Notes under the pieces: generated by a model
What the model was told of the DNA's origin: nothing
The model's input: the letters and a program-made list of their open reading frames with translations, nothing else
The model's database searches: none
Assembly (NCBI GenBank): GCA_016214845.1
Contig: JACRMS010000020.1
Span: forward strand, 62,001-126,000
Source of the DNA: Nitrospirota bacterium
GTDB lineage: Bacteria > Nitrospirota > Thermodesulfovibrionia > UBA6902
Reading direction: 5' to 3'
DNA: 64,000 nucleotides
Position numbers and translations under genes: made by a program
Shown: one piece after another, positions 3,763 to 19,414 of the stretch
Numbering within the stretch: position 1 is the first letter of the stretch
How the letters are laid out: each line of letters starts with the position of its first letter

Positions 3763-4505
3763 AAAAATTTAATCCACTCATCCATTCCTTCCCCGGTCTT
3801 TGATGATACTTCAAGAATATTCAGAGAAGGATTCAGGGACAGCGCATCTTTTTTTATCTTCTGCATATCAAAATCAAAATATTGCACGAGATCGGTCTTT
3901 GAGATGATAAGCAACTGTGCGGTCTTGATGGCCTTCGGGTATTTCAGCGGCTTGTCATGACCTTCGGGAACTGATATGAGCACAACCCTCAAATGCTCGC
4001 CGAGGTCAAAGAATGAAGGGCACACGAGATTGCCCACGTTTTCTATGAAGAGTATATCCAGTCTTTTGCCGTTTAAACTATGCTCAAGTGAATGGAACCC
4101 TTTGTGAACAAGGATGGAATCCAGATGACACGCTCCTCCGGTGGTAAGCTGTACAGCGGGTACGCCTTTTTTCCTGATCCTCTCGGCATCGAGGTCTGTC
4201 TCGATGTCGCCTTCAAGCACCCCGATATTGATCTCGCCTTTCAGCGCGTCAATGGTCTTTTCAAGCAGCGTGGTCTTGCCGGAGCCGGGGGAGCTTATGA
4301 TATTTATCGCGAAGATCCCGTCTTCGTCAAAGTGCTTCCTGTTTCCGGCGGCGGCATCTTCGTTTGCTTTGAGAAGGCTCTGGTTCACGTCTACAACTTT
4401 ATTTTGTAAAATCCCCCCTCGCCCCCCTTTTTCAAAGGGGGGGTGGGGGGATTTTGTATCATGACTATGATCATGGCTGTGACCGCATCCGCACACGTCA
4501 CACAT
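3741..4505 (-). CDS. hypB: Hydrogenase/urease nickel-incorporation GTPase HypB
   Basis: A 254-residue SIMIBI GTPase that delivers nickel to [NiFe]-hydrogenase together with HypA. The N-terminus MCDVCGCGHSHDHSHD is a metal-binding Cys/His stretch. The G1 loop is SSPGSGKTT (about residues 72-80), followed by VLEGDIETD, TTGGACHLD (metal-binding Cys), IENVGNLVCP and SKTDL (G4). Between the His-rich tail and the GTPase domain, residues about 17-32 (KSPHPPFEKGGRGG) are encoded by a palindromic repeat, and the C-terminal IHRLHR by another. The ATG overlaps the hypA end by 8 bp, indicating translational coupling. Confidence 0.97.
   Translation of the reverse strand: MCDVCGCGHSHDHSHDTKSPHPPFEKGGRGGILQNKVVDVNQSLLKANEDAAAGNRKHFDEDGIFAINIISSPGSGKTTLLEKTIDALKGEINIGVLEGDIETDLDAERIRKKGVPAVQLTTGGACHLDSILVHKGFHSLEHSLNGKRLDILFIENVGNLVCPSFFDLGEHLRVVLISVPEGHDKPLKYPKAIKTAQLLIISKTDLVQYFDFDMQKIKKDALSLNPSLNILEVSSKTGEGMDEWIKFLIHRLHR
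4406..4456. repeat. PPFEKGG-type palindrome inserted in frame in hypB
   Basis: A hairpin-forming element with arms AAAATCCCCCCTCGCCCCCC and GGGGGGGTGGGGGGATTTT around a TTTTTCAAA centre. It lies wholly inside hypB, and its length keeps the reading frame. It encodes a charged, Pro/Gly-rich insert between the metal-binding N-terminus and the GTPase domain. Confidence 0.85.
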
Positions 4506-4866
4506 GGGATTCCTCCTCGGTCTCTATTTCCACGTTTTCAATATGCATCTCTTCTCCAGACAAAAGTTTCAGGCTGTATGATCCACAAAACGGGCATGTT
4601 TGAAAGGAAAGATTGTCTGTCTCAAAAGTCTTCTTGCAAGTATTGCATTCATAAACCAAAGGAACTTCTTCAATGGAAATTGCTGCGGAAGACATGAGGG
4701 GATGCTCAAGCTTGACAGCGTCAAAGGCGAATATCAGCGAATCAGCAACGATGCCGGACATCTTCCCGATCTTCAATTTCACGCCCGTGACCTTCTTTGC
4801 ATTATTTTCGAGTGCTATCCTTGTAAGCTCTTTAACCATCCCGATGGCTATTGATACTTCGTGCAC
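4498..4866 (-). CDS. hypA: Hydrogenase maturation nickel/zinc protein HypA
   Basis: A 122-residue metallochaperone that works with HypB in nickel insertion. The family-typical start VHEVSIA (normally MHEVSIA) places the initiator at a GTG (4866) with an ideal GAGGAGG six to seven bases upstream, so a longer reading of the frame is rejected. The His after the initiator is the nickel ligand. The zinc site is two CXXC motifs, ECNTCKKTF and QTCPFCGS (about residues 78-100). The tail is strongly acidic (IETEEESHV). Its start overlaps the hypC end and its end overlaps hypB. Confidence 0.95.
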   Translation of the reverse strand: MHEVSIAIGMVKELTRIALENNAKKVTGVKLKIGKMSGIVADSLIFAFDAVKLEHPLMSSAAISIEEVPLVYECNTCKKTFETDNLSFQTCPFCGSYSLKLLSGEEMHIENVEIETEEESHV

Positions 4867-7969: not shown

Positions 7970-8731
7970 TTATATGCAATGGTCCTCATATTCTTTTATC
8001 TTAGGTATCACGTCCAGGAACAATTTGATGACATTGCTGGCATTTTTTTTCATTGTATCGAGGATCATCTCCCAGGTTACCGGGGCCTCTTCCTCGTGCC
8101 AGCAGTCATAATCCGTTGACATAGCTATCGCGGCGTAGTGCATTTTCTTCTCCCTGGCGAGAACAACTTCGGGGACCGTGCTCATATTAATAACGTCCGC
8201 GTTCCAGCTCCTGAACATGTGGCTCTCAGCCTTTGTGGAGAAACGGGGGCCTTCGATAGTGATGACGGTCTTGTTTTTATGAAAAGGCAGTCCCATATGA
8301 TTTGCGGACAGTGAAAGCAGATCAATCAGGTCCTGACAGAACGGCTCCGCCATCGGTGTATGCACGACAACGTCCTCGTCAAAAAATGTTGTCTCCCTTT
8401 TTCTCGTGTGGTCAATGAACTGGCTGGGGAACACCAGATGTCCCGGGGCTATCTCCTGCCGCAGCGAGCCTACAGCAGTTGACGCAAGGATGTGCGTGCA
8501 CCCCTGTTCCTTCAGGGCATAAATGTTGGCCCTGAAATTTACCTTGCTCGGATAGATCGAGTGGTTCTTGCCGTGGCGTGCGATGATCACAGCGTCCACC
8601 CCTTCAATTGAGCCGCACGTAAGCACGGACGTCGGCGAGCCGTACGGCGTTTCAACTTCGATCTCCCTTGCGTTCTTGAGGATATTGGGGTCATCAAGCC
8701 CCGAACCGCCGATAATTCCGACTTTAATCAT
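7970..8731 (-). CDS. mtnP: S-methyl-5'-thioadenosine phosphorylase
   Basis: A 253-residue PNP/MTAP-family enzyme that phosphorolyses 5'-methylthioadenosine to adenine and methylthioribose-1-phosphate. Motifs are GIIGGSGLDDP at the N-terminus, RHGKNHSIYPSKVNFRANI (phosphate/ribose site, about residues 53-71), NMSTVPEVVLAREK and STDYDCWHEEE. The Asp in the last motif favours 6-aminopurines, as in MTAP, over the Asn of PNPs. A good AAGGAG precedes the ATG. About 260 bp upstream, up to the GHKL gene, carries no gene that I can see. Confidence 0.93.
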   Translation of the reverse strand: MIKVGIIGGSGLDDPNILKNAREIEVETPYGSPTSVLTCGSIEGVDAVIIARHGKNHSIYPSKVNFRANIYALKEQGCTHILASTAVGSLRQEIAPGHLVFPSQFIDHTRKRETTFFDEDVVVHTPMAEPFCQDLIDLLSLSANHMGLPFHKNKTVITIEGPRFSTKAESHMFRSWNADVINMSTVPEVVLAREKKMHYAAIAMSTDYDCWHEEEAPVTWEMILDTMKKNASNVIKLFLDVIPKIKEYEDHCI

Positions 8732-8992
8732 GATTGCTCCTTGAAATTTTATTGATATGCTGATTGAAAAAGACTGCCTATGATTATAGACGATTCAATA
8801 TTTACAACTCAACTTGTTTAATTCTTTTCCCCTGAGAATTATTGCTGAATGAGGATTTTGGCGACGAGGGTGATGTTAGAATTCCTTAATTACAATGTTC
8901 TTTCAAAAAAGCTCTGAATGGCCTGCTTTTGTGATCCGCCCTGAAACAATAAATGGGGTTCTGTCCTTAATCGCCCTTGGTAATACTACTGC

Positions 8993-11338
8993 TTAATCAA
9001 TTGCCGCAATCAATTCTTGCGTTCCTCCAAATTTAAGCAGAAACTCACCGTAGCTCGATTTAAAAAGGTCCCGAAGTACATCATCTAATTCCATTGGTTT
9101 GTCTCCCGGTGGGTCTTCTAAAGAAAATCGGAGCTTCTTTTGCTTAAGGATCGAATATAAAAACAGTGTATGAAAATAAACCTGAGAGACATACTTATTG
9201 TCTGCAATCTGTAATACTTCATCCCCGTCTAATTTGGATTTATATGTCCGCAAGAGGCTGCTGTCCATGTTGATGAATATTGTTTCAAGTTCATCCTTAT
9301 CATTCGTATCAGTTGCCATAATTTCTACTTCATCAAATGGACTGCCAGAGGCCTCGAAGTCACTCCATGTTTTAACCCCTTCTCTTTCATCTTTATACAC
9401 CAAAACCATTTGAGGTAATCCGATCTGAGGTACATTTTCCTCCTCAGGTCTTGGCTCTTTTTCTTTCAACTCTTCGATCTTCACATAGAATATCGATTCA
9501 AGCGCTCCGTCAGGCTGAACAATGGACGATAGATTAGCTTTAATTTGAAGCTCATCTCCTGCTTTTAAAGTATTCTTTGGCTGCATATTAACCCGTATTG
9601 TTCCATCTTGCGGGCTTGATTTTACCACTTGAAAGTATTCATCGATCTCTCGTGGTTTGCCGGGAGCATTTCCGCCAACAGCATCATTAGGAGCATGTTG
9701 CAAAACATAAAGATTGAGTTCTCCTTTATCTTTTATCCGGTCGAAGTATTCATTTTCAACATCTGTATCAAACCGAATTGTCTTATCTCCTCCTAAAGGA
9801 ATCGTCTTGAATATTTTCCCGTCCTTGTCCGGCTTACCCTGTATCTTAAAAATTGACGGGTATCTTTGCGATATAAACGGTTCCTTAGTTTTCGGTTTGC
9901 TATCCGTTTTAATTTTGCTTTTCTGTGTTTCGTCTTTTTTCTTATCTATTTCTTCAAGCTTAAAAGTCTGTTTCAGCAATTTGAGCATTTCAGGGTTTAG
10001 TGGAAGATTCTTGGAAAACTTTTTCAGCAATTCATTTGCATCACTCGTATCTGCCGAAAATGAATCTTTCCTCTGTTTGTATATATCATTAAGCTCACTT
10101 TTCCGGAGATATTCTGCAAGAAGACTTCTGATAATTTCGGATTCTTTCCCGTTTTTCAACCTGTCTCTTGATGCCATAAAAAGGTTATTTCGATAATGCA
10201 AGGTCATATTTGTACAGTCAACATGTATGAGCAAGTAGTCTTTGAGTAATTTATATTTCAATGATCTTGTTATAAATTCCGAGGTATAAAAGCCATGTAC
10301 CTGCCCATTAAGACTGAAGGCGACACTCATATTATTCTTGAAAAACTCGTTCTGGATTGTGTCTTTAAATTCTTTAACAGTCTTATCTTCGCTCTTAACT
10401 TTGAAAACAGTAACTGTTGCCCTGATTTTCCCAACCTCTTTATTACCTGTTATTTCCAAAGAGAATTGCCTGTCTACATATTTGTCCTTCTGATATAAAA
10501 GCCTGTTGGATATACCAAACATTATCCTTTCAAGGCCGATGTCCTTGGGATATCTTTCCTTACGGTCGATGATATAAATTGGTAGAGCCGGATTATGGAG
10601 GTATTCATTAACGCTCTGATTTAAGTCTCTGGAAATAACCGACTTGCTCCCCGGAGGCAGATCGTAGGAGTAGAGTTTAATAATGGTACCGGTTCTAAAC
10701 TTACGCCTATAAATGTTCAGGTCTAATTCATCGATTGGGAATTCAGGTATCTTGCCGTCTGGGCAGAAATACTCATAGTATGTGTTTTTCTTGGTTTCCT
10801 CTTCTTCTTTGGTAAGAGGATGTATTCTCAGCAGGCTGAATCCGAAGTTCCCTGTACTGTCATATCGTTTGGAAGCTACAAGCTGGTATCTTTTTTCACC
10901 ACAATATACAAGCGCCCCGGCTCCGCCCATATTGTACTTGCCCTGGACGAACTTGATATCGTTTTTATTCCCTCGTAAAAGTGATAGAAAAGTATTAGGG
11001 AAATCCTGAGGATGCTGCCCTTCACCGTTATCGAATATTACAAGTGAACTATCACCCCGTGGGCTGTTGGGATCGGCTAAAATCTGGATGTCTTGAGCTA
11101 CTTCATTCCTGTATACTTGAAGATCGAAGTTTTCATAGCTGTAAAAACTGCGCACCGCATCATGCATATTCTTTGGTGCAACCTGTGAACGAGGGTCAAT
11201 GCCCTGTTCATAGCACTTCTTCATCAGCATGGCATCGATAGAGTTTGTTAGTTTTTCGACGAGGGCTGCGACAGGTTTTGCTTGCTGGTTTTCAACGACA
11301 CTAACGTTGCTTTCGTAACTGAAAAAAATATATGCCAA
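8993..11338 (-). CDS. GHKL (Hsp90/MutL/MORC-like) ATPase, probable defence-island protein
   Basis: A 781-residue protein with a complete Bergerat ATP-binding fold at the N-terminus. The N box is EKLTNSIDA (28-36, the Asn coordinating Mg2+), the G1 box FDNGEGQ (102-108) and the G2/lid GKYNMGGAGAL (133-143). No HisKA or receiver domain is present, so it is not a sensor kinase. A long middle region follows, then a charged Lys-rich linker near residue 460 and an unrecognised C-terminal half. MutL/MORC-like ATPases of this kind occur in bacterial restriction-modification neighbourhoods. It faces away from the other defence genes and has its own upstream region. Confidence 0.75.
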   Translation of the reverse strand: MAYIFFSYESNVSVVENQQAKPVAALVEKLTNSIDAMLMKKCYEQGIDPRSQVAPKNMHDAVRSFYSYENFDLQVYRNEVAQDIQILADPNSPRGDSSLVIFDNGEGQHPQDFPNTFLSLLRGNKNDIKFVQGKYNMGGAGALVYCGEKRYQLVASKRYDSTGNFGFSLLRIHPLTKEEEETKKNTYYEYFCPDGKIPEFPIDELDLNIYRRKFRTGTIIKLYSYDLPPGSKSVISRDLNQSVNEYLHNPALPIYIIDRKERYPKDIGLERIMFGISNRLLYQKDKYVDRQFSLEITGNKEVGKIRATVTVFKVKSEDKTVKEFKDTIQNEFFKNNMSVAFSLNGQVHGFYTSEFITRSLKYKLLKDYLLIHVDCTNMTLHYRNNLFMASRDRLKNGKESEIIRSLLAEYLRKSELNDIYKQRKDSFSADTSDANELLKKFSKNLPLNPEMLKLLKQTFKLEEIDKKKDETQKSKIKTDSKPKTKEPFISQRYPSIFKIQGKPDKDGKIFKTIPLGGDKTIRFDTDVENEYFDRIKDKGELNLYVLQHAPNDAVGGNAPGKPREIDEYFQVVKSSPQDGTIRVNMQPKNTLKAGDELQIKANLSSIVQPDGALESIFYVKIEELKEKEPRPEEENVPQIGLPQMVLVYKDEREGVKTWSDFEASGSPFDEVEIMATDTNDKDELETIFINMDSSLLRTYKSKLDGDEVLQIADNKYVSQVYFHTLFLYSILKQKKLRFSLEDPPGDKPMELDDVLRDLFKSSYGEFLLKFGGTQELIAAID

Positions 11339-11394
11339 AAGATTTATAATCCTGTATCAATGCATACACGATAATTCATGAAAGGAGGATCGGC

Positions 11395-11634
11395 ATGAGG
11401 TATTCTGTTCTTGCATATGATGTCCCAATGAAAATAAATCATCCGATTGAGGGGCATTATTTTGTTCATGAGGAGGAATTGGGTTATTACAAAACTCTTA
11501 AGGGGGCATTAAAGAAATGCGAACGCTTTTGCAAAGAAAACAAACATGAATTATATCTGTGTTATGTCACTGAATACGATGACGATGGCAATCAGCTTGC
11601 ACACAAACCTTATGATGAATGGGTAACCGTGTAA
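11395..11634 (+). CDS. Small hypothetical protein
   Basis: A 79-residue acidic, Tyr-rich protein (MRYSVLAYDVP...YDEWVTV) with a very strong ribosome site (AAAGGAGG, six bases before the ATG), so it is probably translated. I do not recognise the family. It looks like a compact alpha/beta fold with no signal peptide, membrane segment or metal motif. It starts 56 bp from the divergent GHKL ATPase gene and precedes the antitoxin-like/nucleotidyltransferase pair. A small regulator or antitoxin is possible but unproven. Confidence 0.65.
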   Translation: MRYSVLAYDVPMKINHPIEGHYFVHEEELGYYKTLKGALKKCERFCKENKHELYLCYVTEYDDDGNQLAHKPYDEWVTV

Positions 11635-11715
11635 ATGCAATTTGTTCGAATTATTGGCTTAAACGAAACCGCATCCCAAAATTAGATTTTTAACCGACAA
11701 TCAAAACTCTTGCGC

Positions 11716-11761
11716 TTTTCCACCACAAAAAGCATAATAACAGCATGAAAGTGGTGGAAAA
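11716..11761. promoter_or_regulatory. Inverted repeat spanning the start codon of the antitoxin-like gene
   Basis: Perfect 11-bp arms TTTTCCACCAC (11716-11726) and GTGGTGGAAAA (11751-11761) flank a 24-bp spacer that contains the ATG at 11745. The geometry fits an autoregulatory operator or a translation-blocking hairpin. A further GTGGTGGAAA copy occurs just after the downstream nucleotidyltransferase gene (about 12774). Confidence 0.5.
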
Positions 11762-12107
11762 TGACAAGGTCATAAGCGGGATGCTTCGGGATGAGCTTAA
11801 ACGTTGCCGGGAGATGATCGACGGTCTTGAGCGGTCTGTATCCGGGCTTCCCAAAGGCGCATTGAATGAGCGGAAGAAAAGATACAAGGGTAAGATATAT
11901 TCATACTCTTGTCTGAAATATCGCGAAGGTGAAAAAGTTATTAGTAAGCACATTCCGAATAAAGAAGTGCCGGAGATATTAAAGAAGCTGGAACTGAGAA
12001 AAAAGTATGAAAAAGAAATACAGTCCTACAAAAAGAAAATATCCTATCTGAACAAGATCACTAAGACCGACAATAAAAGGGGACATGGAGATATCGCTAA
12101 AAAATAA
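11745..12107 (+). CDS. DUF6788-like antitoxin-type protein
   Basis: A 120-residue, very basic, helix-rich protein. The core GLPKGALNERKKRYKGKIYSY followed by YREGEKVISKHI resembles the DUF6788-type small proteins commonly paired with nucleotidyltransferases. The C-terminal third is a Lys/Glu-rich probable coiled coil. Its 3' end overlaps the nucleotidyltransferase gene by 23 bp, a tight coupling typical of antitoxin-toxin pairs. The start codon sits inside an 11-bp inverted repeat. The family assignment is from memory of sequence patterns and should be treated as provisional. Confidence 0.6.
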   Translation: MKVVENDKVISGMLRDELKRCREMIDGLERSVSGLPKGALNERKKRYKGKIYSYSCLKYREGEKVISKHIPNKEVPEILKKLELRKKYEKEIQSYKKKISYLNKITKTDNKRGHGDIAKK

Positions 12108-12768
12108 AAACATATTCCCGGCGGAAGTCATAAAGCTCCTTCAGGCATTTTATTCGGTCGGGTTTTTCGACGAGTCCCTGCTGATCGGAAGCTGGGTCAT
12201 GTCTCTTTATCAGGAGGCTTTTGGCATTCAGTATGTTTTGCGCACGATGGATATCGATTTTGCAGTAAAGTTTGCTCTATCTGACAGAAACAAAGAAATA
12301 GACCTTGAGAAAGTCATTACTGATCTCGGTTATATCCCTGTCGTTATGCAGTCTGGTATTCGCAAGTTTACCCGTGAAAACTTCACTGTTGAATTTGTTA
12401 CCCACCGAAAAGGCGGTAGAGACGTTCAGATTGTGCCAATAAGAAAATGGAATATCACAGCTTCGCCACTCCCGTTTGTTGACCTCCTTCTTGGTTTTCC
12501 ATTTATAGCGGATTTAGGGAATTTCAAGGTAAGAGCTCCATTGCCTGAAGCCTTTTTTGTCCATAAATTAATTACTGCACAAAGACGACCGGGTGAGGGC
12601 AAGAAAGCTAAAGATCTCGATCAATGTTCAATCATTGCCCGTCAGCTCGATCCCGACCGTTTGGATACGGTTGTCGGGTCATTCAAGTTCAGCAGGAAAA
12701 CTCAGAAAGCGTTAAGAGCCTCATGTGAGGCGATCGAATTTCCCCCACAAAAGTTGAGATTAAAGTAA
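12085..12768 (+). CDS. Nucleotidyltransferase-fold protein (toxin-like partner)
   Basis: A 227-residue protein of the NTP-transferase superfamily, close to the GSU-type NTP_transf_8 group. The core LIGSWVMSLYQ followed by RTMDIDFAV contains the GS and DxD catalytic signature (about residues 33-62). VEFVTHRKGGRDVQI supplies the probable third acidic strand. Together with the overlapping upstream gene it forms a likely toxin-antitoxin or defence pair in which the transferase would modify tRNA or another target. It is followed by a direct copy of the GTGGTGGAAA motif. Alternatively it is a plain nucleotidyltransferase of unknown role. Confidence 0.7.
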   Translation: MEISLKNKNIFPAEVIKLLQAFYSVGFFDESLLIGSWVMSLYQEAFGIQYVLRTMDIDFAVKFALSDRNKEIDLEKVITDLGYIPVVMQSGIRKFTRENFTVEFVTHRKGGRDVQIVPIRKWNITASPLPFVDLLLGFPFIADLGNFKVRAPLPEAFFVHKLITAQRRPGEGKKAKDLDQCSIIARQLDPDRLDTVVGSFKFSRKTQKALRASCEAIEFPPQKLRLK

Positions 12769-12895
12769 TGATGTGGTGGAAACACTGTAATATAAAACTC
12801 ACAAATTGTGTTTAGAACAACATGTAAATGCAAATGGTGTCATCAAAATGAAAAAGGAAAAACTATAGCCAAAGACGAGGGGAAAAAGAAGAAGT

Positions 12896-13717
12896 ATGGG
12901 CGATAAGCACATTAGGCACGTATTAGGATTATCCGGCGGCAAGGATAGCGCCGCTCTTGCAGTATATCTTCACGACAAAATTCCCAACATCGAGTATTTC
13001 TTTTGTGACACAGGTTGTGAGTTGCCGGAAACATATGAGTTTTTGGAACGTCTCAAAGCTCGTCTCGGGATAGAAATAACGTATCTGAATAAGGAGTTGA
13101 TTCCTAAAGATGATCCTGAGGCTATCTTTAAACACTGGTTAACTATTTATAATGGTTTTTTGCCTTCCGCTATGGCGCGCTGGTGCACTAAGCAATTGAA
13201 GATTGTCCCTCTTGAGAAGTTTATTGGAGATAATGAGACTATCAGTTATATTGCGATAAGAGCGGATGAGGATCGCGACGGCTACATATCTTCCAAAGAT
13301 AATATCAATCCTGCCTACCCATTTAAAGAAGCTGGTATTACAAAGAAAGATGTTTTTCAGATACTGGAAGACAGCGGAATAGGCTTCCCCAAATATTATG
13401 AATGGCGGTCCCGCTCCGGATGCTATTTTTGTTTTTTTCAGCGGAAGATAGAGTGGATTGGACTTTATGATAACCATCCTGATCTTTTTGAGAAGGCGGC
13501 GAGGTATGAGGGCGAACATTCTGATGGACGGAAGTTCACCTGGAATGATAATGAAACTCTTCGGGAGTTACTTGAACGACGGGGAAGAATAATTGACGAG
13601 CATAAGAAGCTTGAAGCACGTTTGACGAAAGAAAAATCCAATAAGACGTTGATCGATGTTTTATCACAGCTTGATGAGGATGAGGGTTTTAATCCGTGTT
13701 CTGCTTGTCATTTGTAA
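12896..13717 (+). CDS. PAPS-reductase-family PP-loop protein, SspD/DndC-like
   Basis: A 273-residue PP-loop ATP pyrophosphatase. The P-loop LSGGKDSAALAVYL (about residues 12-25) is intact. RWCTKQLK (96-103) and RSGCYFCFFQRK (about 172-183) match the cysteine pattern of the phosphoadenosine-phosphosulfate-reductase-like enzymes that activate DNA for phosphorothioation. A further CSACH closes the protein. It is shorter than typical DndC and nearer SspD size. No assimilatory sulfate genes lie nearby, and the convergent neighbour 42 bp away is a sulfur-binding HNH nuclease. This favours a DNA-modification role over sulfate reduction. A cysteine desulfurase partner is not in the window. Confidence 0.78.
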   Translation: MGDKHIRHVLGLSGGKDSAALAVYLHDKIPNIEYFFCDTGCELPETYEFLERLKARLGIEITYLNKELIPKDDPEAIFKHWLTIYNGFLPSAMARWCTKQLKIVPLEKFIGDNETISYIAIRADEDRDGYISSKDNINPAYPFKEAGITKKDVFQILEDSGIGFPKYYEWRSRSGCYFCFFQRKIEWIGLYDNHPDLFEKAARYEGEHSDGRKFTWNDNETLRELLERRGRIIDEHKKLEARLTKEKSNKTLIDVLSQLDEDEGFNPCSACHL

Positions 13718-13759
13718 TTCTTTTGAAGTTGCCACTGCGACTTTAAAAAGGTTGAATAA

Positions 13760-14647
13760 TTATAACTCTCTGTATTCACCACGAAATACTTCTCTTACAT
13801 GCCACTCGATAAATTCTCTATCGGGATAGTAGGATTTCCTCTGAGGAGGAGTAGTTTTTTTGCCATGAAAATTCATCAGCCATTCCTGAAATCCAACTGT
13901 CCCGTATGCGTGGGCCGATACTAATATTTTCATTTTGTCAGATATGGTAAAGGCGCCTCTATCAAACAATTTGTGGTGTAATGCGCATAAAGCAAGTCCA
14001 TTAACTTCAGTATCAGGGCCTCCAGCCTGGTACCATTTAATATGTGCTGCTTCTAATGCAATGGGAAAGTGGCCTAATCTCACATCAAAACCACACACAG
14101 CACATCTGTATTTATATGCCCTCAAAATATTTTCCCAAAATTCAGGATGCCTCTTTTTTCCCTCAGATATTTGTGACTCAATATCGATTCCCACTGATTG
14201 CAGAATATCCTCATGAATTGATGAAGGGAAATTTGAGTCTAAAAGTTCCTGGACTACTTTGACTAACAATTTCTTATCTGCCTGAAATGTATCGAAAAGA
14301 TGTTTCGGGAATCCACCTGCAACCTTGTAATTAATAAGATCAGCCTTTTGGGGATCGCCGCTTTTGTTGAGTTCAATCTCCTCAGTCCCGGAAACTTCCC
14401 ATAAATTGTCATTTTGCAATCTCCAAAATGGATATTCAGTTCGATAATTCAAACGCACAGGACCAAATTCTCTCAATAATATACCCAAGGTTTTGTCTAT
14501 TTCCTCATAAGAAATCATTCTGCTTTTGTTTTGAAATAGTTTCCCAAGAGCAAATAACAATAATAGTGGTTTATGAGGAGCTCTTTCTCCGCCTCTTTTC
14601 CAGACTGTAATTTTTCTGAATTGTTTTAAGATCGTTTCCTTATTCAT
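13760..14647 (-). CDS. Sulfur-binding-domain HNH restriction endonuclease (ScoMcrA-like)
   Basis: A 295-residue two-domain nuclease. The N-terminal part has HKPLLLLFALGKL (25-37), FGPVRLNYRTEYPFWRLQND (61-80) and LWEV. These match the sulfur-binding domain that recognises phosphorothioated DNA in ScoMcrA-type type IV enzymes. The C-terminal part is an HNH/McrA domain: CAVC (182-185), AAHI (200-203), NGLALCALHHKLFDRG (216-231). Metal-binding and catalytic residues all appear present. Its ATG follows the short ATPase gene by 5 bp and uses a GAAGGA site inside that gene's end. It should cut foreign PT-modified DNA or act with a local PT system. Confidence 0.85.
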   Translation of the reverse strand: MNKETILKQFRKITVWKRGGERAPHKPLLLLFALGKLFQNKSRMISYEEIDKTLGILLREFGPVRLNYRTEYPFWRLQNDNLWEVSGTEEIELNKSGDPQKADLINYKVAGGFPKHLFDTFQADKKLLVKVVQELLDSNFPSSIHEDILQSVGIDIESQISEGKKRHPEFWENILRAYKYRCAVCGFDVRLGHFPIALEAAHIKWYQAGGPDTEVNGLALCALHHKLFDRGAFTISDKMKILVSAHAYGTVGFQEWLMNFHGKKTTPPQRKSYYPDREFIEWHVREVFRGEYREL

Positions 14648-14652
14648 TTACA

Positions 14653-15135
14653 TTATCCTTCGACAACTATGGCTGTAGCCAATATCCCTGGTTTGGTTCC
14701 CCTGACACCCTCCCAATATTTTTCGCTTCCATTCTTTAAGGCGCGCACTAAAGTATAAGCAATAGGCTCTCTTTGTGATGTCGCCACCGCTTTGATCAGT
14801 CCCCTATCATTTATGCTCTTTAGTGATTTGCTTATATGTTTCCCTGAATCATTAAGAATACTGATTGCATTCGACCTGATCTTGTCATCCTTGCCCGAAC
14901 ATAGAGCTGCCAGGAAATGAGCGAAGGCCGACTTCCCTGTGCCATAGACCTCGGTTAATGTCCAGGCCCGTACAGAATTAGGAGAATTCAAAGCATCGCA
15001 AAAGCGCTGGATAAAATCATTTGCCTTGGGCGTTGGAATATACCCATTGACGCTGTCTGCAATATTAAGATCGCGCTCAAGATTTACGGAGCGAGTATAC
15101 CTGCGTTTTATTTTTATGCAATCATAAAGAGACAC
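14653..15135 (-). CDS. Truncated P-loop ATPase fragment
   Basis: A 160-residue N-terminal piece of an ATPase. The Walker A-like TEVYGTGKSAFAHFLAALC (about residues 60-78) is clear. No Walker B, sensor or arginine finger follows before the stop. Partners of DUF4007 in such islands are normally far longer (on the order of a thousand residues, by recollection), so most of the protein seems to be missing. It starts at a GTG 3 bp after the DUF4007 stop, with a GAGG site. It ends 5 bp before the HNH gene and supplies that gene's ribosome site. The short frame is therefore clean and coupled, either a neat deletion or a genuinely minimal protein. Confidence 0.6.
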   Translation of the reverse strand: MSLYDCIKIKRRYTRSVNLERDLNIADSVNGYIPTPKANDFIQRFCDALNSPNSVRAWTLTEVYGTGKSAFAHFLAALCSGKDDKIRSNAISILNDSGKHISKSLKSINDRGLIKAVATSQREPIAYTLVRALKNGSEKYWEGVRGTKPGILATAIVVEG

Positions 15136-15138
15136 TGT

Positions 15139-16068
15139 TCAGCCTCGCTTCCGGTAATAATGCTTTAAGAGCCTTTCAGATAATTCCTGAGGGTTTTTAT
15201 CGTAAGACATCTGAATTAATCCCGCAGTTTCAGATAGAAATATATCATCAAATTGTGTAGAGATTATTTCAATTGCCTCACAGAGCACATTTTCCCTGAT
15301 CTTAAAGCATAACCCCGGACTTCCCTCATCATATAATAAACGGGAGATGGTTATAGTTTTTGCCCCTTCAGCATGAGATGCAGCAAATTCGAGACACGCT
15401 GCAACTATGATTTCGGGGGTCAATCCTGCTTTCGGGCCGATATTCATTGCATATTGTTTCGGATCCCCATAATGCTTAATTAATCCTAACTCAACAAACG
15501 GGCTATCTATTGAATCCTCTATCAGTCCTTCCCGGCTTCTCTGTTCAACGAACATCCTGAGAAGGCAAGTAGTATCTTTGGAAAGAGATGATACATTTAT
15601 GTTGCTTAATGGAAACTCTCGATCTTTGAATTCAATGAGCCCGGAGAGCATATCTTCTGAAGTAAAAACAGGCTGATTGAAGATGTTGAAAGCATAATAC
15701 CAAGCTGTGGCTTGGCAAGGCGCTTTCAAAAGATTCCAGTGTAGCAGCCATAATGAGGCAGTATCCTCAAGATAAGGATCCCATCCTTCACAGCCGAGTA
15801 ATTGTTTTCCAAAATCAGTCGGGATAATTGCTCGACTGTTTTTCTTAGGATCCTCCTGAAGAATTTTATATGCTAAACTCCAATATCTGATAGCCTTCGC
15901 CATGTTCTTCCCCACGCCCAAAATAGAAGGCGCAGACTCCTCAGAAAAAACAGTATTGTTTTCTAATGCCTTCTCAAACCCTTTCTTCAGCCATCCGAAG
16001 CGAGGATGGAAGGTTTCATGTCTTGCAAATATTGGATTGATATTGGATGTTGATTTAGATGTAATCAC
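15139..16068 (-). CDS. DUF4007 family protein
   Basis: A 309-residue soluble protein of the DUF4007 family. It begins with the characteristic ARHETFHPRFGWLKKGFEKA (about residues 14-33), then GVGKNMAKAIRYWSLAYKI, FGKQLL and a helical C-terminal domain. The N-terminal stretch resembles a winged-helix DNA-binding module. DUF4007 proteins occur in defence islands with PAPS-reductase-like and ATPase genes, which matches the genes here. The biochemical role is not known to me. It heads the minus-strand run DUF4007, ATPase fragment, HNH nuclease with gaps of 3-5 bp. Confidence 0.8.
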   Translation of the reverse strand: MITSKSTSNINPIFARHETFHPRFGWLKKGFEKALENNTVFSEESAPSILGVGKNMAKAIRYWSLAYKILQEDPKKNSRAIIPTDFGKQLLGCEGWDPYLEDTASLWLLHWNLLKAPCQATAWYYAFNIFNQPVFTSEDMLSGLIEFKDREFPLSNINVSSLSKDTTCLLRMFVEQRSREGLIEDSIDSPFVELGLIKHYGDPKQYAMNIGPKAGLTPEIIVAACLEFAASHAEGAKTITISRLLYDEGSPGLCFKIRENVLCEAIEIISTQFDDIFLSETAGLIQMSYDKNPQELSERLLKHYYRKRG

Positions 16069-16366
16069 AATTATGGATACCTAACAATTTTAAAATTCAA
16101 CGCTTAATTTTAATCCAACGTCGAGTGAAACGGCAAGGAGAATATGTGCATAGTGCAATAGAGCAGAAGCTCGGAAGGCCAACAACACTCAGCAATAAAT
16201 TATTCTTCCTCACCCCCTCTGCCTCAATTATAGGTAGATTGCCTTTCAAGTGTGCCCCCCATGGAATTTGTGAAACAAGTTGCTTCACAAATAACCTGTC
16301 AGAAAAAAATCCCGGGCGTAAGACTTAACAATAACTCGTGCCAGATTGGTGTACTTTTAATATTAT
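16069..16366. other. Intergenic stretch without a recognisable gene
   Basis: About 300 bp between the DUF4007 gene and the metallopeptidase-barrel gene. Short open frames exist on both strands but show no family pattern and no ribosome site. It probably holds the promoter for the DUF4007 operon and marks the edge of the defence island. Confidence 0.4.
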
Positions 16367-19306
16367 CTACAACTCAGTATAGATCGTAACATACACCTGT
16401 GTCTCGCCGTCTTCTGTAACTCCGCGGGCGATGCCGAAGGCGGGGGTTATTTTCAATTTATATCCAAGCACCATGTCCAGTCTTGCTTCAGCGCCTACAC
16501 CGACGGAGATATCGTTAGAGTGAAATTTTTTCTCGCGTCCCCAGACATTGCCTGCGTCAGCAAAGGCGGCGACATGCACTCTGTCCCAGAAAAACGGTTT
16601 TGTGTTTATGCCCCTGAGGATGTACTTCACCGGGAACCTGTACTCAAGCGTTCCCTTTGCAACGTGTTTGCCTGTCTGGAAGCCTGAAGAAAATCCCCTG
16701 ATGAAATATTCATTGCCGGGGATGCCGCCGACGCTGAACGCCTGCTGGGCGATCAGGTCTCCGCCTGATGTGGCGCCCTTCAGGTTTAAATAGAGCACGT
16801 GGTGTTTCCACGTTTTGATGTACTCTTCATAATTTAATTTATACTCTTCCTGGCCCAGGTCGCTGCCGACGGCTTCGGAATAATTTTTATACAGGAAGGA
16901 GATGTTCCTTCCCTCTTCCCTGCTTATTGAATAGGGATATTTCAACGCGTTTGTAAATTCAAGGCCCGCAAAAACATTGCTCCTTCTGCCTTCGAATACT
17001 TCAAGCCCGTCAACTCTTCTGCCCTCAATGTCCGTCAGGTGCTTGAGAGTTTCGGTATTGAACCCGGCAACAAGGTTGAGACTTGTCTCAAGGTTGGTAA
17101 AGAGCGGGAACCTTGCGCCCGCTGTGAAACCGCTCCGCCTCTCATAGTAATTGTCATCGTCATTGAAAAACTCAGAATAAAAAATTGGCGCACTGTATGA
17201 CCTGAAAAAAAACGTGGGATACCATCTGTCATAGATATAATTAAAATCATAATACCCCCGATGGCTCACGCCGTATCCGCCCTGCAGGATGTAGGTATGA
17301 TATCCAAGCACGTCCTGCCCAGCAGTGAATGCGCCGAATACCGCGCCGTCATTGTCAAACGAAAGAGTGGGCATCCAGAATTTTGGCAGCAGGGTTTTGC
17401 CCGGGCAGTACGGCCTTTTTTCAGAGAGCGGTTGGGGGGCTGCTGTAGGTGCGGGTTTTAAACCCGCCCCTACGGGTGAATCTGGATTTTCATTTATTTG
17501 CTGCCCCTCACTTTTCCATTCCGGGGTTATCCTCGGGCTCAAAGTATCAGACCATTGTGAGGCTTCATAGGGCATCTCCGCAAGGTAAAAACCTTTTGAA
17601 CTATATCCGGTGAAGAATATTTTCCCGTCCTTTGATACTTCGGGGTGAAAGGTCCCGCCTAACACGTGCGACACCTGAGAGAGTTTTTTGTCAGTGATGG
17701 AATGCGCAAAGAGGTTATACACCCCTGTCCTGTCCGACGCAAATATAATGGTCTTCCCGTCAGGGGCCCACGCAGGATAAACGTTGTTGTAATTGTTGGT
17801 GATGAGCGTCTCCGCGGTTTTTGTCTCAACGTTGAGCAGCTCAATGGATGTTTGCCCTGAGTAGTTGTGCCTTGCAAAGACGATAAACCTTCCGTCAGGC
17901 GACCATCTCGGAGATGACAGGGCTGAATCCTGAAAATCAGCAATGACATTGACCCCGTTAGAAGCGATCTCCAAAATAGAAATATCCTGCCTGCCGGTCT
18001 CCACCTTTACAAAAGCAATCTGTTTGCCGTCAGGAGAGACGTCAACATCCTTGGCGCGTAATTTTTCTGTTATGCGGCTGACTGACCTCGCCGCAAGGTC
18101 ATATGAATAAATGTCCTGATAAAGGTTGTAGACGTTCTTCAATTCAGCCTGCGTGAAATAAAGTTTCTGCCCGTCAGGCGACCATGAAAGGTTTGAATCA
18201 GAAGGGAATCTTCTGACGGTTGCAGCCTCTTTCAGCGTTGCCGTTTCAACGATCACAATTTCCTCATGCCGGTGCGGGTCTTTCCTGTTTACCGCGAGAT
18301 ACCTGCCGTCAGGAGAGAGCCGTGCGTTTGTGACCCTTTCGCCTTCAATTTTTAATTTGGTGTAATTTGTCAGGGGCCTTGCATTCAGCTCCTGGATTTT
18401 TTTGTTTTGGTCTTTTTTCAGCTCTGCAATCGTGTCTTCATAAAGCTCGGAATAATCCTTTCCCGTAATATTTTCAGGCGGACTGCTTATAAGAAACGGA
18501 AGCCGTCCCGAGTGCGCGTAACTGAGCTTGCCGATATTTTCATTCCCATAGGTTTGCGCGATATGTTTTTCAAGCAGCATCCCGTAGATGTAAGGGATGT
18601 TTCCCGACGGCCAGTAGGGGATGTCACCGTTTATCTGGTCAACGCCTGGAAGGCTGTCCTCCAGGACCGCCATCCTGAATATCATTTCAACATAAGGGCT
18701 CTTTCCCCTTCCATCAGGTGTATATTCGCTCTCCGCCCATGTGGCAGTGCCCTCAAGCCACCAGTCAGGCATGAATACATTGGGCGGGGCAGTTAATAAA
18801 AACGCGAGGAACGAAAGCGGATCGTAACCCGGCAGCGGCTTGCCGAAGATGCTTCTCGTTGTCTCTGAATAACCTCTTGAAGAGTCCATTGTCATGATAT
18901 GTGTATATTCGTGCAGGATAATATACTCAAGCCAGTCATCATACTCGGAAATGGTCATGTCGGGCATCGGGGGCACGGCAAAAATATATATCATGTTATA
19001 GGGAAGGACATTGGCAAAACCGTTTGCGAAATCGGAGTTGTCTATAAGAACGATCTGGGTCTTTTCTTTTGGATACCACTGAAAGCTGCCGGACATTTTC
19101 TGATGAATGTCTTCGGCAATTGCAGCCGCCCTGTTTGCTATCCCGTCTTCGCCCTGATGGAAGTGGATGGAGAAATGTTCAGTCTCGATGGTTGAAAATC
19201 TGAATGACGGGTCAATGGTTGCAGAAAGGGCAGGTGAAGATGGGAAAAAGATCGCGCAGGTAAAAAGCAAAAATATAAAGAGGGACAAACTATAGCGTTT
19301 TTTCAT
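16367..19306 (-). CDS. Exported metallopeptidase / TolB-type propeller / outer-membrane barrel fusion
   Basis: A 979-residue protein. A signal peptide (MKKRYSLSLFIFLLF..., cleaved after about ALSA) is followed by a gluzincin-type zinc peptidase domain with HEYTH (132-136) and WLEGTATWAE (about 183-192, distal Glu ligand). A PD40/WD40-like beta-propeller follows, with repeated SPDGRYLAV, WSPDGQKLYF and APDGKTIIFASDR units (about 320-590). The C-terminal third resembles a surface-antigen/Omp85-type barrel (GGIPGNEYFIRGF, FADAGNVWG). The linker at about residue 611-621 (VGAGLKPAPT) is encoded by a palindromic repeat. The ATG at 19306 has GGAG six bases upstream, so a longer N-terminus is rejected. 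It probably displays or processes protein at the outer membrane. Confidence 0.82.
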   Translation of the reverse strand: MKKRYSLSLFIFLLFTCAIFFPSSPALSATIDPSFRFSTIETEHFSIHFHQGEDGIANRAAAIAEDIHQKMSGSFQWYPKEKTQIVLIDNSDFANGFANVLPYNMIYIFAVPPMPDMTISEYDDWLEYIILHEYTHIMTMDSSRGYSETTRSIFGKPLPGYDPLSFLAFLLTAPPNVFMPDWWLEGTATWAESEYTPDGRGKSPYVEMIFRMAVLEDSLPGVDQINGDIPYWPSGNIPYIYGMLLEKHIAQTYGNENIGKLSYAHSGRLPFLISSPPENITGKDYSELYEDTIAELKKDQNKKIQELNARPLTNYTKLKIEGERVTNARLSPDGRYLAVNRKDPHRHEEIVIVETATLKEAATVRRFPSDSNLSWSPDGQKLYFTQAELKNVYNLYQDIYSYDLAARSVSRITEKLRAKDVDVSPDGKQIAFVKVETGRQDISILEIASNGVNVIADFQDSALSSPRWSPDGRFIVFARHNYSGQTSIELLNVETKTAETLITNNYNNVYPAWAPDGKTIIFASDRTGVYNLFAHSITDKKLSQVSHVLGGTFHPEVSKDGKIFFTGYSSKGFYLAEMPYEASQWSDTLSPRITPEWKSEGQQINENPDSPVGAGLKPAPTAAPQPLSEKRPYCPGKTLLPKFWMPTLSFDNDGAVFGAFTAGQDVLGYHTYILQGGYGVSHRGYYDFNYIYDRWYPTFFFRSYSAPIFYSEFFNDDDNYYERRSGFTAGARFPLFTNLETSLNLVAGFNTETLKHLTDIEGRRVDGLEVFEGRRSNVFAGLEFTNALKYPYSISREEGRNISFLYKNYSEAVGSDLGQEEYKLNYEEYIKTWKHHVLYLNLKGATSGGDLIAQQAFSVGGIPGNEYFIRGFSSGFQTGKHVAKGTLEYRFPVKYILRGINTKPFFWDRVHVAAFADAGNVWGREKKFHSNDISVGVGAEARLDMVLGYKLKITPAFGIARGVTEDGETQVYVTIYTEL
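17445..17473. repeat. VGAGLKPAPT-type palindrome inserted in frame in a gene
   Basis: A near-perfect palindrome, GTAGGTGCGGGTTTTAAACC running on to CGCCCCTAC, wholly inside the metallopeptidase-barrel gene. It codes for VGAGLKPAPT in the linker between propeller and barrel. A relative of the same hairpin class lies in an intergenic gap at 60624-60656. Confidence 0.85.
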
Positions 19307-19414
19307 AATGAACTCCGTTCTAAATTTGCACTGCATGCAGGGAAAGAATAGAGTCAATAGTTATGCGTGAAGAGTTTAAAAATGATGCATAATGATTCTT
19401 TTCACTTTTAACTT

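Follow-up and report, generated by a model that had tools for sequence, protein, structure and literature searches.

The window, the whole 64,000-nucleotide stretch of DNA analysed here, contains what is probably a decayed Ssp operon in a small defence island. On this reading, DNA phosphorothioation (PT) is dead at the locus and a separately acquired HNH nuclease serves as a working type IV restriction enzyme. The source genome is a draft assembly of 3.45 Mb that is 96% complete. Profile searches use the PADLOC, Pfam and NCBIfam sets, and phmmer comparisons are made against the proteins of solved structures. The family survey covers 37 genomes and the phylum sample 396 genomes. The nearest intact reference locus, L010, comes from a Desulfobacteraceae MAG (RPRI01000037.1).

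Table 1. Positions of the features within the window and the matches that identify them.
Feature	Position	Strand	Evidence
Island bounded by a phosphorylase-like gene (7970-8731) and a TolB-like gene of 996 aa (16367-19357)	8816..16367		Comparison with G406 and G407
GHKL/HSP90-like ATPase, 781 aa, lacking about 44 N-terminal residues	8993..11338	-	Weak Pfam HATPase_c_3 match, 8e-4
Two-gene module: 120-aa ORF (11745-12107) and NTP_transf_8 nucleotidyltransferase (12085-12768)	11702..12782	+	Pfam PF12281, 1.4e-27
SspD, PP-loop/PAPS-reductase-like sulfurtransferase, full length	12896..13717	+	PADLOC SspD, 3.4e-109
SBD-HNH nuclease, predicted PT-dependent type IV restriction endonuclease, 295 aa	13760..14647	-	NF045808
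SspC stub, 160 aa	14653..15135	-	PADLOC SspC, 7.7e-44, profile positions 2-133 of 1104
Ribosome-binding-like AAGGA at the stub's 3' end, 8 nt upstream of the HNH start codon	14656..14660	-	Sequence
SspB (DUF4007), full length	15139..16068	-	PADLOC SspB, 2.6e-114; Pfam DUF4007, 1.8e-94

Ssp genes of the locus

The earlier note, made from the sequence without database searches, placed a PP-loop protein, a sulfur-binding HNH nuclease, an ATPase and a DUF4007 protein together at this locus, and all four have strong family matches at those positions. From these matches the locus reads as the wreck of an Ssp, not a Dnd, PT operon. The DUF4007 protein also matches the solved SspB structure (6juf/6lb9; phmmer, 4.5e-55) and is the predicted DNA-recognition and nickase subunit of the Ssp modification complex. 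The PP-loop protein contains SGGKD at residues 13-17, SGCYFCFF at residue 174 and a C-terminal CSACHL, and its gene is convergent with the HNH gene. The BrxP and DndC models score it far lower than the SspD model does. A profile search of the whole genome with PF01507 has SspD as its single match, and the genome therefore encodes no DndC or BrxP, the PAPS-reductase proteins of Dnd and type 4 BREX PT systems.

The closest relative found is the intact sspB-sspC-sspD locus of L010, with 57% identity in SspB, 53% at the start of SspC and 58% in SspD. It differs from the window in having a complete SspC and a co-directional SspD, and in lacking an SBD-HNH gene. When compared with four outgroups, SspB and SspD of the window show about the same similarity as the L010 copies and have not evolved faster. 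These two genes are undecayed and were therefore either recently orphaned or retain some role. A recent loss of SspC is favoured over another retained use of SspB and SspD.

The arrangement resembles the single-strand PT system SspABCD(-E or -FGH) in its adjacent homologues of SspB, SspC and SspD. It differs from that system in that SspC is cut short, SspD lies on the opposite strand, the predicted PT-dependent nuclease occupies the place of SspC, and neither SspE nor SspFGH is found in the island. In L010, sspBCD is followed by a gene for a 769-aa protein (L010:13613-15922) with an SspF-like NTPase region, residues 177-480 of which match PADLOC SspF (2.4e-28). The N terminus of this protein resembles a sulfur-binding domain by eye, and the protein is possibly a PT-reading effector fusion.

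The earlier note reported that both a cysteine desulfurase and a nickase were missing. The second statement fails because SspB, which is full length, is itself the reported Ssp nickase (PMC7188994). The first is correct for the locus, where no desulfurase is encoded. A search of the rest of the genome, which the note had suggested, yields seven PF00266 matches, and three of these are strong; they are class V aminotransferase/desulfurase-type genes at the level of the family. Such an arrangement is usual for PT clusters, to which an iscS gene at another genomic site often supplies the desulfurase (PMC12707154). Vibrio anguillarum FF-93 likewise uses iscS and does not encode a desulfurase locally (PMC8092258), although SspA of V. 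cyclitrophicus FF75 proved irreplaceable (PMC7188994). The absence of a local desulfurase is normal because IscS can serve.

Truncation of SspC

SspC provides one of the three core activities of PT modification (PMC12707154). In the window it is reduced to the first ~150 residues of a ring ATPase of ~1170 aa, with nothing beyond about residue 153. The Walker A motif GTGKS is retained at residues 65-69 of the stub, in line with the earlier description of a stunted ATPase of 160 residues with only its Walker A part. The search for full-length relatives beside DUF4007, also suggested there, finds intact loci such as L010. Of the 1171 residues of the L010 SspC, only 4-156 have a match in the window, and ~87% of SspC is therefore missing. 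SspC is at least 1150 aa long in every intact relative examined. Similarity of the stub to the outgroups is slightly below that of L010 in three of four comparisons, which are too few to conclude from.

The rest of SspC is absent from the window and from the whole genome, where a search returns the stub only. No SspC occurs elsewhere among the 37 genomes of the family, and this stub is the sole occurrence. A complete SspC ring ATPase, which a functional Ssp system requires, is thus lacking at the locus and genome-wide. A complete modification operon elsewhere in the genome, which would have made this locus a solitary remnant, is not found; SspD is the only PF01507 protein and the stub the only SspC. 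With the ring ATPase no longer made, SspB and SspD are very probably unable to place sulfur in DNA. Counts of SspB and SspD hits alone would wrongly call this genome PT-modifying, which is a warning for annotation.

The SBD-HNH nuclease

The nuclease matches the NCBIfam model NF045808, 'phosphorothioated DNA-binding restriction endonuclease', over profile positions 2-284 of 284 (4.4e-108). Its score of 360.7 bits is twice the curated cut-off of 180 bits. It also matches ScoMcrA (5zmm), TagI (6ghs) and the SBD structures 7cc9 and 7ccd in phmmer comparisons. The sulfur-pocket motifs HK (H25-K26) and YP (Y72-P73) align to those of ScoMcrA and TagI, the nuclease residues H202, N216 and H225 are present, and the HNH motif is intact. 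The NF045808 enzymes EcoWI and SprMcrA share its domain order, its pocket motifs and its HNH motif. Membership of this family suggests a specificity for PT-DNA. Most of the SBD-HNH relatives examined are solitary or lie in other defence islands, whereas the window copy is inside an ssp operon, behind the stub.

SBD-HNH enzymes cut near PT sites and destroy PT-modified DNA, and expression of EcoWI blocks the uptake of dnd+ plasmids (PMC7461809). Nucleases that cut PT-DNA should kill a cell that makes it. These enzymes and PT clusters are predicted not to occur together, and the enzymes lie beside dnd in <3.6% of cases; the rare coexistences are explained in the literature as probable mutants, a mutated cluster being one explanation among others (PMC7461809). 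In the phylum sample, full-length SspB is present in 9 of 396 genomes and an NF045808 protein above the cut-off in 4, with no overlap. This is no proof of exclusion, because the expected overlap is only ~0.1.

The stop codon of the stub (14655-14653) and the ATG of the HNH gene (14647-14645) are separated by 5 nt. This gap and the AAGGA motif make translational coupling of the two genes plausible, in agreement with the earlier note. The HNH gene, placed where SspC had been, probably depends on the former sspB promoter for its transcription and on coupling to the stub for the start of its translation. In a scan for promoters and terminators, promoter counts are close to chance and no promoter is claimed. 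When DNA enters from other bacteria that modify with PT, or from the phages or plasmids of such bacteria, the sulfur-binding domain would recognise its PT linkages and the HNH domain would cut near them. The host would be spared, and the nuclease safely kept, because its own DNA would be unmodified without SspC.

Closely related nucleases are present in two other genomes, G140 and G403, each in a different context. Across the three pairs formed by these two copies and that of the window, dN/dS is 0.10-0.17, which indicates purifying selection and a function kept through most of their history; these values average over the time since divergence, and a very recent silencing would escape notice. 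This bears on the possibility that the entire island, including the nuclease, is non-functional debris with no current role. Such an outcome would agree with the missing N terminus of the GHKL gene, the many truncated genes in related loci, and the low G+C content of the island and its absence from the same-genus genome G406. It is unlikely given that the nuclease is intact and has been under purifying selection in three genomes and three contexts.

Separate histories of the nuclease and the Ssp genes

The neighbours of the nuclease differ among the three genomes: an SspC stub in the window, an SspB stub in G140 and no ssp gene in G403. In G140, the HNH protein is 82% identical to that of the window, and its gene is flanked by a 101-aa SspB stub on one side and by the start of an SspD gene, which runs off the contig end, on the other. 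The HNH protein of G403 is 84% identical, and its gene stands alone on a contig that lacks ssp genes. In the HNH region, similarity to the window at the DNA level ends ~10-13 nt upstream of the ATG and just past the stop codon.

Between the window and G140, synonymous divergence (pS) is 0.41 for the HNH gene, compared with the saturated values of 0.92 in the SspB stub and 0.90 in the SspD fragment, and with 0.86 in the GHKL gene. Because pseudogene status has little effect on synonymous change, the two Ssp loci must have separated long before their nucleases did. Two long-separated Ssp loci have thus acquired closely related nucleases, and two independent recruitments into two different loci would be the simplest reading. 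By these comparisons the nuclease is a latecomer: it was acquired independently of the Ssp genes and at a more recent date. The suggestion in the earlier note that the modification half had been lost while the nuclease was kept is close to this evidence, except that SspB and SspD are full length, the lesion is in SspC, and the nuclease arrived separately and later.

Other Ssp loci of the family are also ruined. One genome (G342) contains a 91-aa SspB ORF and a 100-aa SspD ORF adjoining unrelated genes. In another (G326), ~11 codons of SspD are left, and they follow a copy of the nucleotidyltransferase module found at 11702-12782 of the window. The pattern is one of ordinary defence-island turnover with repeated loss of Ssp in the family.

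A working minimal Ssp variant, which the earlier note also proposed, would have SspB, the SspC stub and SspD still modifying DNA, possibly helped by a non-cognate ATPase; its cognate effector would be the HNH protein, which would tolerate or use the marks. Such a variant would fit the intact and unaccelerated SspB and SspD, the retained Walker A motif, the apparent coupling of the HNH gene to the stub, and the other HNH effectors described beside Dnd clusters (PMC10853773). It is nevertheless very unlikely. The proposal is weak because SspC is at least 1150 aa in all intact relatives whereas the stub lacks everything past about residue 153, because no other SspC occurs in the family, and because the other Ssp loci of the family are ruins. 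The stub and the nuclease are also not a conserved unit, since the G140 locus lacks SspC and most of SspB and the G403 contig lacks ssp genes. Known SBD-HNH enzymes, moreover, destroy PT-modified DNA (PMC7461809).

An assembly chimera, in which the SspC-HNH junction erroneously joins two unrelated sequences, is highly improbable: the genome is in 41 contigs and relatives of the nuclease occur in other contexts, but G140 independently places its nuclease directly between an SspB stub and SspD, the genes on either side of the island in this contig are those that flank the site in G406 and G407, and a genome search finds no further piece of SspC from which the stub might have been separated.

The preferred reading, a decayed Ssp operon with a separately acquired nuclease, is a clear case of a visibly broken writer, and the family contains another Ssp locus, separated from this one long ago, that holds a closely related nuclease. 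The case favours the view that an operon whose writer is broken offers the opposing enzyme a place that is both safe and already wired; the related nuclease in the second Ssp wreck is consistent with cutters settling where the marking machinery is broken. All components belong to known families, and the repeated takeover of ssp ruins by a nuclease is a modest new observation. There is a slim chance that, in this lineage, defence ORFs travel as bare cassettes, insert directly behind 5' stubs of resident defence genes and take over the promoter and translation start of those genes. In that case the SBD-HNH genes behind SspC and SspB stubs, and the fixed left edge of the orf120/nucleotidyltransferase module beside neighbours that are cut differently, would come from one recombination process and not from unrelated deletions.

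The island and its neighbouring genes

The site of the island is empty in G406, where window position 8815 is joined directly to 16368. In G407, unrelated genes replace the island at the same site; assigned by eye, these encode a 1204-aa protein whose start is TIR-like and a SIR2-like protein of 290 aa. The coordinates of the variable site in relatives are L107:7312-14136 and L108:13892. G+C content is mostly 0.38-0.44 within the island, compared with 0.46-0.47 in its flanks. At the DNA level, 12896-16068 has no match in the phage collection. An Rfam search of the window returns only tRNAs, with no RNA element at the junctions, and the G140 and G403 contigs have no Rfam matches.

The two-gene module at 11702-12782 has inverted-repeat ends (TTTTCCACCAC/GTGGTGGAAA). 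Its left edge is fixed in six genomes with mostly differing flanks, and its right edge is seen in two. The module is possibly a small mobile toxin-antitoxin-like unit. A repeated element of ~60-100 nt around the G403 nuclease was considered as integron-like attC sites and set aside; it also precedes unrelated genes and is absent from the window. A dispersed repeat with the core GGCGATATTTTTATGCCACTGTAAGG has no Rfam match and is often found just upstream of genes in genus g2 genomes (L052:389-424, 1362-1448 and 4486-4570; L031:14717; L085:640, 2383 and 3599).

The GHKL/HSP90-like ATPase of the island is 46-52% identical to the products of genes beside sspBCD in L025, L027 and L028. In these three genomes of one genus, the ATPase gene lies downstream of an intact sspBCD (L025:14583-19245, L028:15286-19931 and L027:17555-19843). 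It is preceded in L025 and L028 by genes for a ParB-N protein, a ParB-HTH protein and a DUF6602/PD-DExK-like protein. The ATPase has no match among the PADLOC models, and the region after sspBCD in these genomes is a candidate for an undescribed Ssp effector module. Identity of the 781-aa protein with the published SspH is rejected; SspH is FtsK-like (PMC8092258), and the GHKL protein is matched by no PADLOC model. The GHKL gene is cut at differing points in the window, G368 and G378. In G140 (L085:12982-14757), its natural N terminus continues in frame with the part that follows residue ~228; the ATPase region is thereby deleted and the reading frame is still open.
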